DNA of 64,000 nt from Cycloclasticus sp. 46_120_T64 (GTDB lineage Bacteria; Pseudomonadota; Gammaproteobacteria; Methylococcales; Cycloclasticaceae). Numbering within the stretch: position 1 is the first letter of the stretch; each line of letters begins with the position of its first letter. The position numbers and the translations under genes were made by a program. This document shows, one piece after another, positions 1,634 through 53,947 of this stretch. The notes beneath the pieces were generated by a model. The model was not told the origin of the DNA and did no database searches. It saw only the letters and a list, made by a program, of their open reading frames with translations. The stretch spans positions 1-64,000 of the forward strand of contig MAAM01000004.1 in the NCBI GenBank assembly GCA_002162695.1. The letters are read 5' to 3'.

Positions 1634-4048
<2,415 letters not shown>

Positions 4049-48562: not shown

Positions 48563-48609
48563 CAGACTAAAATGTGTACGAAGGAACACATTTTAGTCTG
48601 GGTTTTTTT
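48563..48609 (+). terminator. Strong 15-bp perfect hairpin with T tract on the forward strand
   Basis: Arms CAGACTAAAATGTGT (48563-48577) and ACACATTTTAGTCTG (48586-48600) with an 8-base loop, then GG and seven T (48603-48609). The T tract follows on the forward strand, yet both flanking genes run on the reverse strand. It sits directly after the DUF4202 stop, so it may still stop that transcript, or it may end an unseen forward transcript. Confidence 0.7.
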
Positions 48610-49189
48610 AGCTTAGAGCTTTCTCAACAAGAGTTTGCAATTTAGCCTCTAAGCTTAGCTTCAGCGCGGCTTGGTGGCCGTTATCTGACATTTTTGCCCA
48701 TGTTTTTTGCACAATATCGATGATTTTTTCATCAGAGTGTTTTGAGGCGAAAGGGCCGAAGTAGTAGTTTAAGAAAACGAGGCAGGTCACGTCTTCTAAG
48801 GTTTGTACCTCTAGGTCTGTTTTAAGCTTTCGTTTTTGAATAATAAGTTTGGCGCGTTTGATCTCTTCAACGCTATAGCCGGTTGTTTGCATAGCCTCAG
48901 CTAAGGTGCTGGCATGAAGTTTCGCTAAATCGGTTCGCCACTTCAGGTAGCCTTCTAGTCCTTCTGGGTAGTCTTGGCGTGATGATTTCCAACGGCAGAC
49001 GTGCTGCGCGTAACAGGCGAGAGTTAGTGGTTCCGAGGCGTCTTCTATAAAGCCCTGCAGGGTGCTGAGCATGCGCTGTGAATACAGTACCTCGTTGTTG
49101 ATTGATACACCATCGACCATCGTTTGTTTAGGGTCATCTTGATTTGCTTGGTCAATTAAGGCGATACAGGTGGATAGTTTATTTGGCAT
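48608..49189 (-). CDS. DUF4202 family protein
   Basis: 193 residues, all-helical, matching DUF4202: VLYSQRMLSTLQGF, LACYAQHVCRWKSSRQDYPEGLEGYLKWRTDLAKLHA, TLEDVTCLVFLNYYFGPFASKHSDEKIIDIVQKTWAKMSDNGHQAAL. The paired His and Glu residues look like an HD-domain-like metal site, but the function is not known. It is a single gene with a strong hairpin directly after its stop. Confidence 0.88.
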   Translation of the reverse strand: MPNKLSTCIALIDQANQDDPKQTMVDGVSINNEVLYSQRMLSTLQGFIEDASEPLTLACYAQHVCRWKSSRQDYPEGLEGYLKWRTDLAKLHASTLAEAMQTTGYSVEEIKRAKLIIQKRKLKTDLEVQTLEDVTCLVFLNYYFGPFASKHSDEKIIDIVQKTWAKMSDNGHQAALKLSLEAKLQTLVEKALS

Positions 49190-49536: not shown

Positions 49537-50256
49537 ATGCGGTTATTGGTATTGTTGTATGCGGTTGTTAGTTATTTCATTTTTTTTGCTATCTTTGTGT
49601 ATTTTGGGGCGTTTGTCGCCGATGTTTTTGTTCCAAAGTCGATTTCCGTACCGGCGAAGTATTCAGAGAATGCCTTGCTGATTAATATCGGTCTCTTATT
49701 GATGTGGGGTGTGCAGCACAGCGTGATGGCTCGTGGTTGGTTTAAAGAAATGATTTCCAGTGTGGTTCCGCACCAGGTTGAGCGTGCGACTTATGTGCTG
49801 GTGTCTTCGCTTACCTTGGCGGTACTTATGCTGTTTTGGCAGCCAATGGAAGGGATTATTTGGCAAGTAGAGAATGAGTTGGCCCAGCAGGTCATTTGGG
49901 TCTTATTTGGTTTCGGTTGGGTATTGGTATTACTGGCTACCTTTTTAACCGACCACTTCGATTTATTTGGTTTACGCCAAGGTTGGTTATACTTCGTCAA
50001 AAAAACCTATACCCCAGTTGTTTTCACTAAAAGTTTTTTTTACCACTGGATTCGACACCCGATGATGCTCGGTATTTTGATTGCTTTTTGGTCAGTTCCT
50101 ATGATGACGCTGGGGCATTTGGTGTTTTCACTCGGCATGACGCTGTATGTAGTGATTGGTATGTACTTTGAAGAAAAAGGCTTGGCCCGTGAGTTAGGCG
50201 AGACCTATACCAGCTACCAACAAGAAACCAAGAAAATCATTCCCAAAGTCTATTAG
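49537..50256 (+). CDS. MddA/NnrU-like integral membrane methyltransferase
   Basis: 239 residues with about five or six hydrophobic helices. The sequence pattern (LLLMWGVQHSVMARGWFK, VERATYVLVSSLTLAVLMLFWQPM, LFGLRQGW, then KSFFYHWIRHPMMLGILIAFW and EEKGLARELGETY) matches the family that includes methanethiol S-methyltransferase MddA and NnrU/ICMT-like proteins. MddA methylates methanethiol to dimethyl sulfide using SAM. It lies directly upstream of the SAH-riboswitch leader and the metK-ahcY-metF genes that make and recycle SAM. The family is confident; the DMS function is inference. Confidence 0.75.
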   Translation: MRLLVLLYAVVSYFIFFAIFVYFGAFVADVFVPKSISVPAKYSENALLINIGLLLMWGVQHSVMARGWFKEMISSVVPHQVERATYVLVSSLTLAVLMLFWQPMEGIIWQVENELAQQVIWVLFGFGWVLVLLATFLTDHFDLFGLRQGWLYFVKKTYTPVVFTKSFFYHWIRHPMMLGILIAFWSVPMMTLGHLVFSLGMTLYVVIGMYFEEKGLARELGETYTSYQQETKKIIPKVY

Positions 50257-50265
50257 GTGTTTGTC

Positions 50266-50293
50266 TTGTTTTTTTGAAAACATCCACTAAAAT
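50266..50293 (+). promoter_or_regulatory. Candidate promoter of the metK leader
   Basis: TTGTTT (50266-50271), a 16-bp spacer and TAAAAT (50288-50293), with transcription predicted to begin close to the first pairing arm of the riboswitch at 50301. Weak -35 and good -10; assigned by eye. Confidence 0.45.
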
Positions 50294-50300
50294 GCAAACA

Positions 50301-50370
50301 CTTGTTTAAGGAACGCTGCGCCAGGATCTTCCTGCTAGGCTTATTCAAGAATTAATATTTAACGGCGTTC
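50301..50370 (+). ncRNA. S-adenosylhomocysteine (SAH) riboswitch aptamer
   Basis: The conserved core GGAACGCTGC (50310-50319) corresponds to the SAH aptamer GGAGCGCTGC core, CTAGGCTT (50335-50342) to CCAGGCTC, and AACGGCGTTC (50361-50370) to AACGGCGCTC. Pairing also fits: P1 50301-50310 with 50340-50349 (8 of 10 pairs), a hairpin CAGGA (50322-50326) with TCCTG (50330-50334), and the long-range pairing GAACGC (50311-50316) with GCGTTC (50365-50370), where the change from GC to AT is compensated on both sides. Known SAH riboswitches activate ahcY, metH or metF when SAH is high. This one precedes metK-ahcY-metF. Confidence 0.85.
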
Positions 50371-50408
50371 ATTATTAACAGGTCACTGGAATAATGAACG
50401 TTGTGTCT

Positions 50409-50434
50409 AAGATTTAAGCTCTTAAATCTTTTTT
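50409..50434 (+). terminator. Intrinsic terminator in the metK leader
   Basis: Perfect stem AAGATTTAAG (50409-50418) with CTTAAATCTT (50421-50430), then T residues to 50434. It lies 64 bp before metK and after the SAH aptamer, so it could be the expression platform. Upstream, GTTCATTATT (50367-50376) can pair with AATAATGAAC (50390-50399). That hairpin shares bases 50367-50370 with the SAH pseudoknot. Confidence 0.75.
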
Positions 50435-50497
50435 GCCATATCAGGCATCGCCACGTGCTCATGTTTCAGTACCGTTGACAATAATGGGACATTTATT

Positions 50498-51664
50498 ATG
50501 AGTAATGATTTTATATTTACCTCTGAATCGGTATCAGAAGGGCACCCCGATAAAATAGCCGATCAAATTTCTGATGCGATGCTCGATGCTTTATTAGAAC
50601 AAGATCCTACATCACGCGTTGCCTGTGAAACGATGGTTAAAACGGGGATGGTTATTCTGGCCGGTGAAGTCACCACCAGTGCATGGGTGGATACCGAAGA
50701 ACTGGTGCGTAACGTGGTTAAAGACATCGGTTATGACAAACCAGAAATTGGTTTTGATTGGCAGAGCTGTGCGGTGCTCAATGCGATTGGTAAACAGTCA
50801 CACGATATTGCTATCGGCGTGGATGATTCTGAGGACCATGAGCAGGGCGCTGGTGACCAAGGTCTGATGTTTGGTTATGCTTGTGATGAAACCGATGTAT
50901 TGATGCCGGCACCGATTACCTATTCACACCGTTTAGTCGAAAGACAAGCAAAGCTGCGTAAAAATGGTACTTTGCCGTGGTTACGTCCGGATGCGAAAAG
51001 CCAATTAACCCTGCGTTATGAAAACGATAAGCCGGTGGCGGTTGAGGCCGTGGTGTTATCAACCCAGCATTCCCCAGATATTAATGAAGCAACATTAAGA
51101 GAAGCGGTGATTGAGGAAATTCTTAAACCCGTTTTACCGAAAGCTTGGTTTGATAGCTGTTTAGCAGAAAATATCCATATTAACCCAACGGGGCAATTTA
51201 TTATTGGTGGCCCAGTGGGTGACTGCGGTTTAACCGGGCGTAAAATCATCGTAGATACTTACGGCGGTATGGCGCGTCACGGTGGGGGAGCATTTTCAGG
51301 CAAAGATCCGAGTAAAGTGGATCGATCTGCGGCTTATATGTGTCGATATGTTGCTAAAAATATTGTTGCTGCGGGTTTGGCCAAACGCTGTGAAATTCAA
51401 GTCTCATACGCCATTGGGGTAGCAAAACCGACCTCCATCAGCGTAGAAACCTTTGGTACGGGTGCCATCGACAATGACCTTATTGCTCGCTTAGTGAGTG
51501 AGCATTTTGATTTACGCCCCAAAGCACTGATCGCAGAACTTGATTTAAAACGCCCCATTTATCAGCAAACAGCCGCCTACGGGCATTTTGGTCGTGAAAT
51601 TGCTGATTTTACCTGGGAAAAAACAGATAAAGCCGAGCTGCTACGTGATGCGGCGGGCATTTAA
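50498..51664 (+). CDS. metK: S-adenosylmethionine synthetase
   Basis: Makes SAM from methionine and ATP. 388 residues, standard length. It begins [27 protein letters not shown] and has the hexapeptide GAGDQG and the phosphate loop [19 protein letters not shown]. It is the first gene of metK-ahcY-metF, with a 26-bp gap to ahcY. The leader contains an SAH riboswitch and terminator, so expression should depend on the SAH level. Confidence 0.99.
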
Positions 51665-51690: not shown

Positions 51691-53097
51691 ATGACTACAT
51701 TTACAGATTTTAAAGTGGCCGACTTATCCCTTGCTGAATGGGGACATAAAGAAATAGCCATTGCCGAGAGTGAAATGCCGGGCCTAATGGCATTATGTGA
51801 TGAACTGGGTGACAGTAAACCATTAACAGGCGCGCGCGTAGCGGGTAGCTTGCACATGACGATTCAAACTGCGGTATTGATTAAGACCTTGGTTGCATTA
51901 GGTGCCGAGGTGCGTTGGTGTTCTTGTAATATTTTTTCAACACAAGACCACGCGGCGGCAGCGATGGCTGATTTGGGTATTCCTGTGTTTGCTTGGAAAG
52001 GCGAAACCATTGAAGAATACTGGTGGTGTACTGAAAAAATGATGACCTGGCCAGCAGGGCAAGAAGCCAATATGATTCTTGACGATGGTGGTGATGCGAC
52101 CTTGTTATTACATAAGGGTGCTGAATTTGAAAAAGCGGGTGCGGTGCCCGATGCGAAAGCAGGTGATAACGAAGAGTGGGTCGCTATTCTTGAGGTATTA
52201 CGTCGCAACTTGCCTATTTCCCCAACACGTTGGGGTGATATGGCGGCTAGCGTTAAAGGGGTAACCGAAGAAACGACTACCGGTGTACACCGTTTGTATC
52301 AAATGCAAGAAGCGGGCGAACTATTATTCCCTGCGATGAATGTAAATGACTCGGTGACGAAGAGTAAGTTCGATAACCTATACGGTTGTCGTGAATCCTT
52401 ACTTGATGGTATCAAACGCGCAACGGATGTGATGATTGCCGGTAAAATTGCCATCGTTATTGGTTACGGTGATGTAGGCAAAGGCTGTGCGCAAGCCTTT
52501 AAAGGTATGGGCGCAACCGTTTGGGTAACCGAGGTTGATCCTATTTGTGCCCTACAAGCCGCGATGGAAGGTTATCGTGTAGTGCGTATGGATGAAGTGG
52601 CGGACCAAGGTAATATCTTTGTGACCACCACCGGTAACTTGGGTGTTATTACCCACGACCATATGGCGGCGATGAAAAATGAAGCGATTGTTTGTAATAT
52701 CGGCCATTTTGATTCAGAAATTGATATTGCCTCATTAGAGCAATACGAATGGGAAGAGGTTAAGCCGCAAGTAGATCACATTATTTTCCCCGATGGAAAG
52801 CGTATTACCCTATTGGCTAAAGGCCGCTTAGTAAACCTGGGTTGTGCCACGGGTCACCCTAGTTTTGTGATGTCGGCTTCATTTACCAACCAAGTGATGG
52901 CGCAAATTGAGTTTTTCACCAATGGCGATGCCTATAAAAATGAAGTGTACGTGCTGCCTAAAACACTGGATGAAAAAGTCGCGCGTTTGCACTTAGATAA
53001 AGTGGGTGCAAACCTAACCGTGTTGTCAAAAGAACAAGCAGATTACATTAATGTATCCGTTGACGGCCCTTACAAACCTGAGCACTACCGTTATTAA
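51691..53097 (+). CDS. ahcY: Adenosylhomocysteinase (SAH hydrolase)
   Basis: NAD-dependent enzyme splitting SAH into homocysteine and adenosine, relieving inhibition of methyltransferases. 468 residues. The N-terminal substrate domain has [25 protein letters not shown], the middle NAD fold has [29 protein letters not shown], and the C-terminus ends [36 protein letters not shown] with the essential Lys and Tyr tail. It is the expected direct target of an SAH riboswitch. Confidence 0.99.
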
Positions 53098-53098
53098 T

Positions 53099-53947
53099 AT
53101 GGCATTAGAAAGTAACCAACCGATTAGTTTTGAGTTCTTTCCGCCGAAAACGGCGGAAGGGCGGGACAAGCTTTTAGCGGTCACTAGTAAGCTGGGTAAA
53201 GTAAACCCAGCTTATTTTTCGGTGACCTTTGGTGCGGGCGGCAGTACCCAGCAAGGTACCATTGATACCGTATTAGATATTCAGCAGCAGGGCTTTTCGG
53301 CAGCACCGCATTTATCTTGTGTAGGCTCAACAAAAGAGAATATTCGTCAAATTCTGGCTAACTACCAAAGCCAAGGTATCGATAGAATTGTTGCCCTACG
53401 CGGTGATATTCCATCCGGCACCTTGGATGCCGGTGAATTTCGTTATGCGAATGAATTAGTCGGCTTCATTCGTGAAGAAACCGGTGATCACTTTCACTTA
53501 GAAGTGGCGGCGTATCCAGAGATTCATCCGCAGGCAAACAATGCGCAAACGGATTTAGCTAACTTTAAACAAAAGGTAGAAGCGGGTGCAAATAGCGCCA
53601 TTACTCAATACTTTTTTAACTTTGAAGCCTACGTTCGGTTTGTGGAAGATTGTGACAAAATGGGATTAACGGTGCCGATCGTGCCGGGTATTATGCCGAT
53701 CACCAACTATTCGCAGCTGGCTAGGTTCTCTGATATGTGTGGTTCAGAAATTCCCCGTTGGATCGCGAAGCGTTTAGAAGGTTTTGCCGATGATCGTGAA
53801 TCAATTAAAGCGTTTGGAACGGATGTGGTGAGTGAACTGTGCCAATCCTTATTGGACTATGGTTGCCCTGGTTTGCACTTTTACAGCATGAATCAGGCGG
53901 AATCGAGCTTGGCAATCTGCCGTAACTTAGGAGTAGAAGGCGCATGA
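53099..53947 (+). CDS. metF: Methylenetetrahydrofolate reductase
   Basis: FAD enzyme producing 5-methyl-THF for methionine synthesis. 282 residues from the ATG at 53099 (MALESNQPISFEFFPPKT), one base after the ahcY stop. The SFEFFPPKT motif and FSVTFGAGGSTQQGTIDTV, VALRGDIP and PGIMPITNYSQLARF are typical of MetF. A GTG at 53051 inside ahcY gives a longer frame but is rejected. Overlaps the next gene by 4 bp. Confidence 0.97.
   Translation: MALESNQPISFEFFPPKTAEGRDKLLAVTSKLGKVNPAYFSVTFGAGGSTQQGTIDTVLDIQQQGFSAAPHLSCVGSTKENIRQILANYQSQGIDRIVALRGDIPSGTLDAGEFRYANELVGFIREETGDHFHLEVAAYPEIHPQANNAQTDLANFKQKVEAGANSAITQYFFNFEAYVRFVEDCDKMGLTVPIVPGIMPITNYSQLARFSDMCGSEIPRWIAKRLEGFADDRESIKAFGTDVVSELCQSLLDYGCPGLHFYSMNQAESSLAICRNLGVEGA

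Follow-up and report, generated by a model that had tools for sequence, protein, structure and literature searches.

An SAH riboswitch with a long anti-aptamer leader ahead of the metK–ahcY–metF operon of Cycloclasticus

Introduction

In the usual account, SAM represses its own synthesis. The SAH riboswitch is said, in the account of Wang et al. 2008, to stand in front of ahcY or metH. In the sections cited here, the class is reported to discriminate more than 1,000-fold against SAM (PMC10992897), and Leyn et al. (2014), who surveyed about 200 proteobacterial genomes, state, in the part cited, that metK is not controlled by SAH riboswitches (PMC4239095). The SAM/SAH riboswitch of the Rhodobacterales (RF01727) precedes metK and can bind SAH, according to the cited portions of PMC2864571 and PMC7367207.

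Here we describe an element in a 64,000-nt stretch of the Cycloclasticus sp. 46_120_T64 genome (contig MAAM01000004.1; hereafter, the window). By family it belongs to RF01057; its gene context is new and its platform long. We consider it probable that it is a true SAH riboswitch leading the whole metK–ahcY–metF operon, in which a hairpin would keep the operon low without SAH and expression would rise with SAH.

An SAH aptamer leads metK, ahcY, and metF

The original prediction proposed an SAH riboswitch ahead of metK–ahcY–metF and named a covariance-model search with RF01057 as its check. That search (cmscan) returned a forward-strand match of 40.3 bits at 50302–50377, over the gathering cut-off of 37, with E-values of 5e-4 for the 64 kb and 4.4e-6 for the genome; it is the sole RF01057 match in this genome (2.2 Mb, 15 contigs). 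The three downstream genes, all above their curated cut-offs, are as predicted, and both the identity of the element and its position are upheld. The metK–ahcY and ahcY–metF gaps measure 26 bases and 1 base, respectively, the former being too short to hold a relic of a second switch, an idea that was therefore discarded. The coordinates of the features are collected in Table 1.

Table 1. Features of the leader, the operon, and the neighboring genes in the window
Feature	Coordinates	Strand	Basis
DUF4202 protein	48608–49189	−	PF13875, 233 bits
MddA-like gene (methanethiol S-methyltransferase)	49537–50256	+	NF045656, 258.9 bits
Candidate promoter, TTGTTT (50266–50271), 16-nt spacer, TAAAAT (50288–50293)	50266–50293	+	read by eye
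SAH riboswitch aptamer (P1, P2, pseudoknot helix P4)	50302–50377	+	RF01057, 40.3 bits; pairing in 18 leaders
P1	50302–50310/50340–50348	+	aptamer helix
P2	50322–50326/50330–50334	+	aptamer helix
P4	50311–50316/50365–50370	+	pseudoknot helix, GAACGC/GCGUUC
Anti-aptamer hairpin	50362–50404	+	fold; 50362–50376 with 50390–50404 (15 pairs) plus CAG/CUG, 50379–50381/50386–50388
A+T-rich hairpin and T run, terminator-like	50409–50434	+	fold; stems 50409–50417/50422–50430
Small hairpin, TGCC/GGCA	50434–50447	+	alignment columns 191–194/207–210
Possible ribosome-site hairpin, ACCGTT with AATGGG, over Shine-Dalgarno-like GGGA (50486–50489)	50471–50490	+	model accessibility
metK, methionine adenosyltransferase	50498–51664	+	TIGR01034, 615.6 bits
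ahcY, adenosylhomocysteinase	51691–53097	+	TIGR00936, 625.5 bits
metF, methylenetetrahydrofolate reductase (MTHFR)	53099–53947	+	TIGR00676, 339.5 bits

The P1 helix of the window contains two U-U mismatches, at 50305 and 50306. From the candidate promoter, which is missing from the list of the consensus scan, transcription would start at about the first aptamer base, and similar hexamers at similar spacing are present in most Cycloclasticus leaders. The gene directly upstream of the switch encodes an MddA-like protein that scores just below its cut-off (270 bits), and in 13 of the 18 Cycloclasticus copies such a gene precedes the switch by 49–78 bases; MddA uses SAM, makes SAH, and yields dimethyl sulfide. 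A DUF4202 protein is also encoded near the operon.

Across the genus, an RF01057 match stands ahead of metK in all 17 genomes that hold metK, among 18 genomes of Cycloclasticus; the remaining genome (G009, 78% complete) has neither metK nor a match. All 18 copies from these 17 genomes precede metK. Three fall below the cut-off (G006, 36.3 bits; G011, 34.7 bits; G008, 33.4 bits), and the window copy is the fifth lowest of the 18. In the 18 leaders, the aptamer helices are paired in 97.5% of cells overall (P1, 98.1%; P2, 93.3%; P4, 100%), with 3 of the 20 pairs changed on both sides. The covarying P4 variant that the original prediction had pointed out, GAACGC with GCGTTC, is real: P4 is fully paired in 18/18 leaders, including one in which the last pair is UA for CG. 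Among 233 leaders with recognizable P4 strands, a set for which the search pattern preselects both strands, the A of GAACG stands opposite U in 41/41, and the other 192 have G at that position.

The long platform harbors an anti-aptamer hairpin

The distance from the aptamer end to the start codon has a median of 22 nt before ahcY (197 leaders). Before metK the medians are 117 nt in Cycloclasticus (18 leaders) and, in two further families, 92 nt in f10 (30 leaders) and 116 nt in f144 (11 leaders), while the three remaining metK leaders (families f82 and f161) have 20–29 nt; the platform in the window is ∼120 nt. In ahcY leaders such as that of genome G224, the P4 3′ strand and the bases that follow it are, by eye, complementary to the start region. 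The long metK leaders instead pair the P4 3′ strand with a dedicated downstream partner. Because the 5′ arm of the resulting hairpin contains the P4 3′ strand, the hairpin and the aptamer are mutually exclusive. The aptamer, a hairpin predicted to take its P4 3′ strand, the mutual exclusion of the two, and the gene order can all be read from the DNA itself.

The pairing of the anti-aptamer hairpin is preserved in 97.5% of cells in the 18 Cycloclasticus leaders (28 of 500 shuffles were as high) and in 90.8% of cells in 45 leaders of two families (29 of 500), compared with 32–63% when the strands are slid out of register. Since its 5′ arm is held by the aptamer, changes in the hairpin are mostly one-sided, which makes the covariation test itself weak. 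In the ligand-free model of the window, the P4 3′ strand is paired downstream with a probability of 0.999, a value that none of 200 shuffles reached.

Further hairpins are predicted between this structure and metK. The terminator-like hairpin is absent from the list of the consensus scan, and relatives do not conserve its T tail; of 62 metK leaders, only 4 had a T-tailed hairpin flagged, and an intrinsic terminator, which calls for a conserved hairpin and T run, was rejected as the general platform. The small hairpin recurs in most Cycloclasticus leaders (TACC/GGTA, TGCC/GGCA), where pairs have changed on both sides at two positions and are broken in some rows.

Folding models of the metK ribosome site

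In folding models of the window, closing P4 raised the accessibility of the Shine-Dalgarno sequence from 0.29 to 0.60, which was reached by 0.5% of 200 shuffles. The mean gain was 0.124 in Cycloclasticus (18 leaders) versus 0.003 in shuffles and 0.089 in f10 (30 leaders) versus −0.006, although the gain exceeded 0.1 in only 5/18 and 10/30 leaders, respectively. Over all 62 metK leaders, the change was positive in 47, above 0.1 in 21, and below −0.1 in 3. For the whole site from the Shine-Dalgarno sequence to the AUG, one of the 18 Cycloclasticus leaders gained more than 0.1 and one lost more than 0.1, with the window going from 0.46 to 0.42. The 170 ahcY leaders used as a yardstick showed no mean Shine-Dalgarno gain (0.40 and 0.40), and the accessibility model is therefore a weak instrument.

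Complementarity to the ribosome site was not above shuffles in Cycloclasticus, f10, or f144, nor was local occlusion of the site clearly above shuffles. A three-strand model, in which the freed anti-aptamer strand joins the ribosome-site hairpin at its 5′ arm, was convincing by eye in several leaders but was dropped; against dinucleotide shuffles, its mean z was −0.11 in Cycloclasticus and 0.38 in f144, neither above expectation, and a modest −1.03 in f10.

The metK-leading position is derived

In a class-wide sample of 369 Gammaproteobacteria genomes, 154 contained an RF01057 match, giving 163 matches, 162 of which could be placed. The next gene was ahcY in 147 cases, metK in 10, and metH in 3, with two copies at a contig end. 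metK is an old neighbor of the switch, as it lies just upstream of it in 117 of the 162 copies, all of them among the 147 that precede ahcY. The 10 metK-preceding copies belong to two Cycloclasticus, three f10, two f144, and two f82 genomes and one f161 genome. Within the same order, the 32 copies examined from other families all stand before ahcY. Of the 80 named loci nearest in MetK, 19 score above the RF01057 cut-off; the match stands after metK in 14 of them and before it in 5 (L024, L026–L029), which all belong to the Cycloclasticus group. Because the ahcY position prevails both in the other families of the order and class-wide, the metK-leading position is, on these sequences, derived. 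The view that metK directly behind an SAH sensor is unusual thus stands; what has to be added is that the arrangement recurs in several gammaproteobacterial lineages and so is not unique.

The survey also turned up other arrangements. G269, G373, and G384 each carry a second SAH riboswitch copy (L180, L212, L225), which precedes a metH-like methionine synthase gene recognized by eye from its translation. G139 gave a weak match of 31.9 bits, under the cut-off, that is not followed by a SAM-cycle gene and was taken as chance. In another gammaproteobacterial clade, a SAM-II aptamer (RF00521, 35.5–38.8 bits, cut-off 36) lies upstream of metK and an SAH riboswitch before ahcY in 6/6 loci (L040, at 3864–3940, L042, L053, L264, L266, and L272, with L053 and L266 identical in sequence), so that one gene appears to sit between sensors for SAM and SAH. 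A tRNA gene lies ∼67–143 bases upstream of metK in 11 named loci that lack an SAH riboswitch (L032, L035, L037, L038, L041, L043, L046, L048, L050, L051, and L065).

Repeated relocation of the switch

In f10, which has 46 matches, all 30 copies examined precede metK. The 32 copies examined in f144 comprise 11 before metK, 20 before ahcY, and one at a contig end, and four genomes (G598, G599, G601, and G602) carry two copies ∼1.4 kb apart. As this spacing is the length of metK, one copy would stand before metK and the other before ahcY. The order switch–metK–switch–ahcY is seen outright in f82 (G224 and G453). Ancestors would have carried the switch between metK and ahcY, from where it would have moved, or been acquired anew, upstream of metK, and tandem copies are a natural intermediate in such a relocation. 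In a quick MetK tree of 189 proteins (74 named and 115 chosen with per-group limits), the metK-only state needs four changes, of which well-supported branches force at least three; the tandem state needs two. On these protein sequences, the metK position must have arisen independently three or more times.

Pairwise alignments of 266 aptamers gave a further result. The nearest aptamer outside the genus is from f10 for 18/18 Cycloclasticus copies, and the nearest outside f10 is from Cycloclasticus for 30/30 f10 copies, whereas the 32 f144 aptamers have their nearest neighbors elsewhere. A single clade of Cycloclasticus and f10 MetK proteins was rejected with a p-AU of 0.006 (84 proteins), a value weakened by the group having been picked after the tree was seen. 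The leader shared by Cycloclasticus and f10 may thus, as judged by these alignments, have been transferred without its gene. Shared descent with later losses, or convergence, would be alternative explanations of the likeness. Tentatively, we propose that a leader which senses SAH and brings along its own long anti-aptamer platform has spread as a regulatory cassette, independent of the genes behind it. It would have rewired SAM synthesis to SAH in three or more lineages, some of which retained a second copy before ahcY.

Discussion

The aptamer and its platform suggest how the operon might be controlled. Without SAH, the anti-aptamer hairpin would form and hold operon expression down. As SAH accumulates, the aptamer would close P4, the anti-aptamer hairpin would open, and expression would rise, with the outcome that SAH is hydrolyzed, homocysteine is remethylated with the help of MetF, and SAM is resynthesized. 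In folding models, a hairpin that captures the P4 strand fits an ON switch. For the last step, the opened hairpin may free the metK ribosome site, which the models slightly favor; as the link from hairpin to expression, we rank this relief first and attenuation second.

By transcription attenuation, the anti-aptamer hairpin would, in the absence of SAH, leave a signal further along the leader exposed, and RNA polymerase would stop before metK, either at the terminator-like hairpin or through Rho loading on a C-rich, G-poor stretch, and SAH would prevent the stop for the whole operon. This would suit a single leader controlling three genes, and the window does have a hairpin with a T run; however, the rarity of T-tailed hairpins among metK leaders means that this feature is not conserved, and an anti-terminator pairing was not found. 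As for Rho, which such a composition would suit, C exceeds G between the hairpin and the ribosome site in 59/59 long metK leaders (18 Cycloclasticus, 30 f10, and 11 f144), and in Cycloclasticus and f10 the excess is on average higher than in ∼94% of windows from the same locus; it is weaker in f144, and in the leader described here it is ordinary, with 33% of windows in the 64 kb as high. On balance, attenuation appears rather unlikely.

Two other readings bear on whether the element regulates metK through SAH at all. Were the leader a relic, the aptamer might still bind SAH while the platform no longer controlled metK and expression was constitutive. The low rank of the window score within the genus, the two P1 mismatches, and the mixed model changes at the AUG all lean this way, yet P4 is kept in every Cycloclasticus copy and the anti-aptamer hairpin in nearly all cells despite a varying 3′ arm, and retention of the two together is not what one would expect of a relic, which leaves this reading improbable. 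A SAM or SAM/SAH sensor acting as an OFF switch for metK, as in the Rhodobacterales, would agree with metK being a usual target of such switches (PMC2864571 and PMC7367207, in the portions cited). In the 361 bases searched, however, the SAM, SAM-SAH (RF01727), and SAM-Chlorobi (RF01724) models gave no match within an E-value of 5, the only other match at E up to 5 being to one plant miRNA model and due to chance. As only RF01057 matches, these identities of the element were rejected, and an OFF switch of this kind is the least credible of the explanations weighed here. The preferred reading is that of an SAH-responsive ON switch for the operon.

A sensor before metK that reads the by-product SAH would, by the ON logic expected of its class, step up SAM production at times of high methylation demand and inhibition. 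If this is true, the by-product of methyl transfer drives the remaking of the methyl donor, with a sign opposite to that of SAM riboswitches on metK. Within one family, f144, the ahcY-only, tandem, and metK-only states all occur, so that each step of the rewiring can be tested, and the comparison of Cycloclasticus with f10 offers a case in which a riboswitch leader seems to have traveled without its gene.

Among open-licence papers, we found no description of an SAH riboswitch ahead of metK, and, given the statement on metK in the cited part of the published survey (PMC4239095), the arrangement appears to be undescribed. In Methylophaga nitratireducenticrescens GP59, an “S-adenosylmethionine riboswitch” is listed beside methionine adenosyltransferase (Table 4 of PMC12530212, the part cited); compared by annotation rather than by sequence, this is probably the same arrangement under another name. 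Several known systems resemble the locus in what they control. SahR regulons likewise place metK, with ahcY and metF, under SAH-responsive control, but through a protein regulator and not an RNA (PMC4239095, in part). The SAM-Chlorobi motif likewise leads operons with metK and ahcY (PMC2864571, in the section cited) and belongs to another RNA family, with no match here. RF01727 differs from the window element in fold and family and, in the cited portions of PMC2864571 and PMC7367207, is thought to respond to SAM; it too has no match here. With the RF01057 riboswitches that precede ahcY or metH, the element shares the aptamer, the P4 pseudoknot, and a SAM-cycle operon with ahcY and metF (PMC4239095, in the part cited). 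It differs from them in having metK as its first gene and a platform several times their median length.
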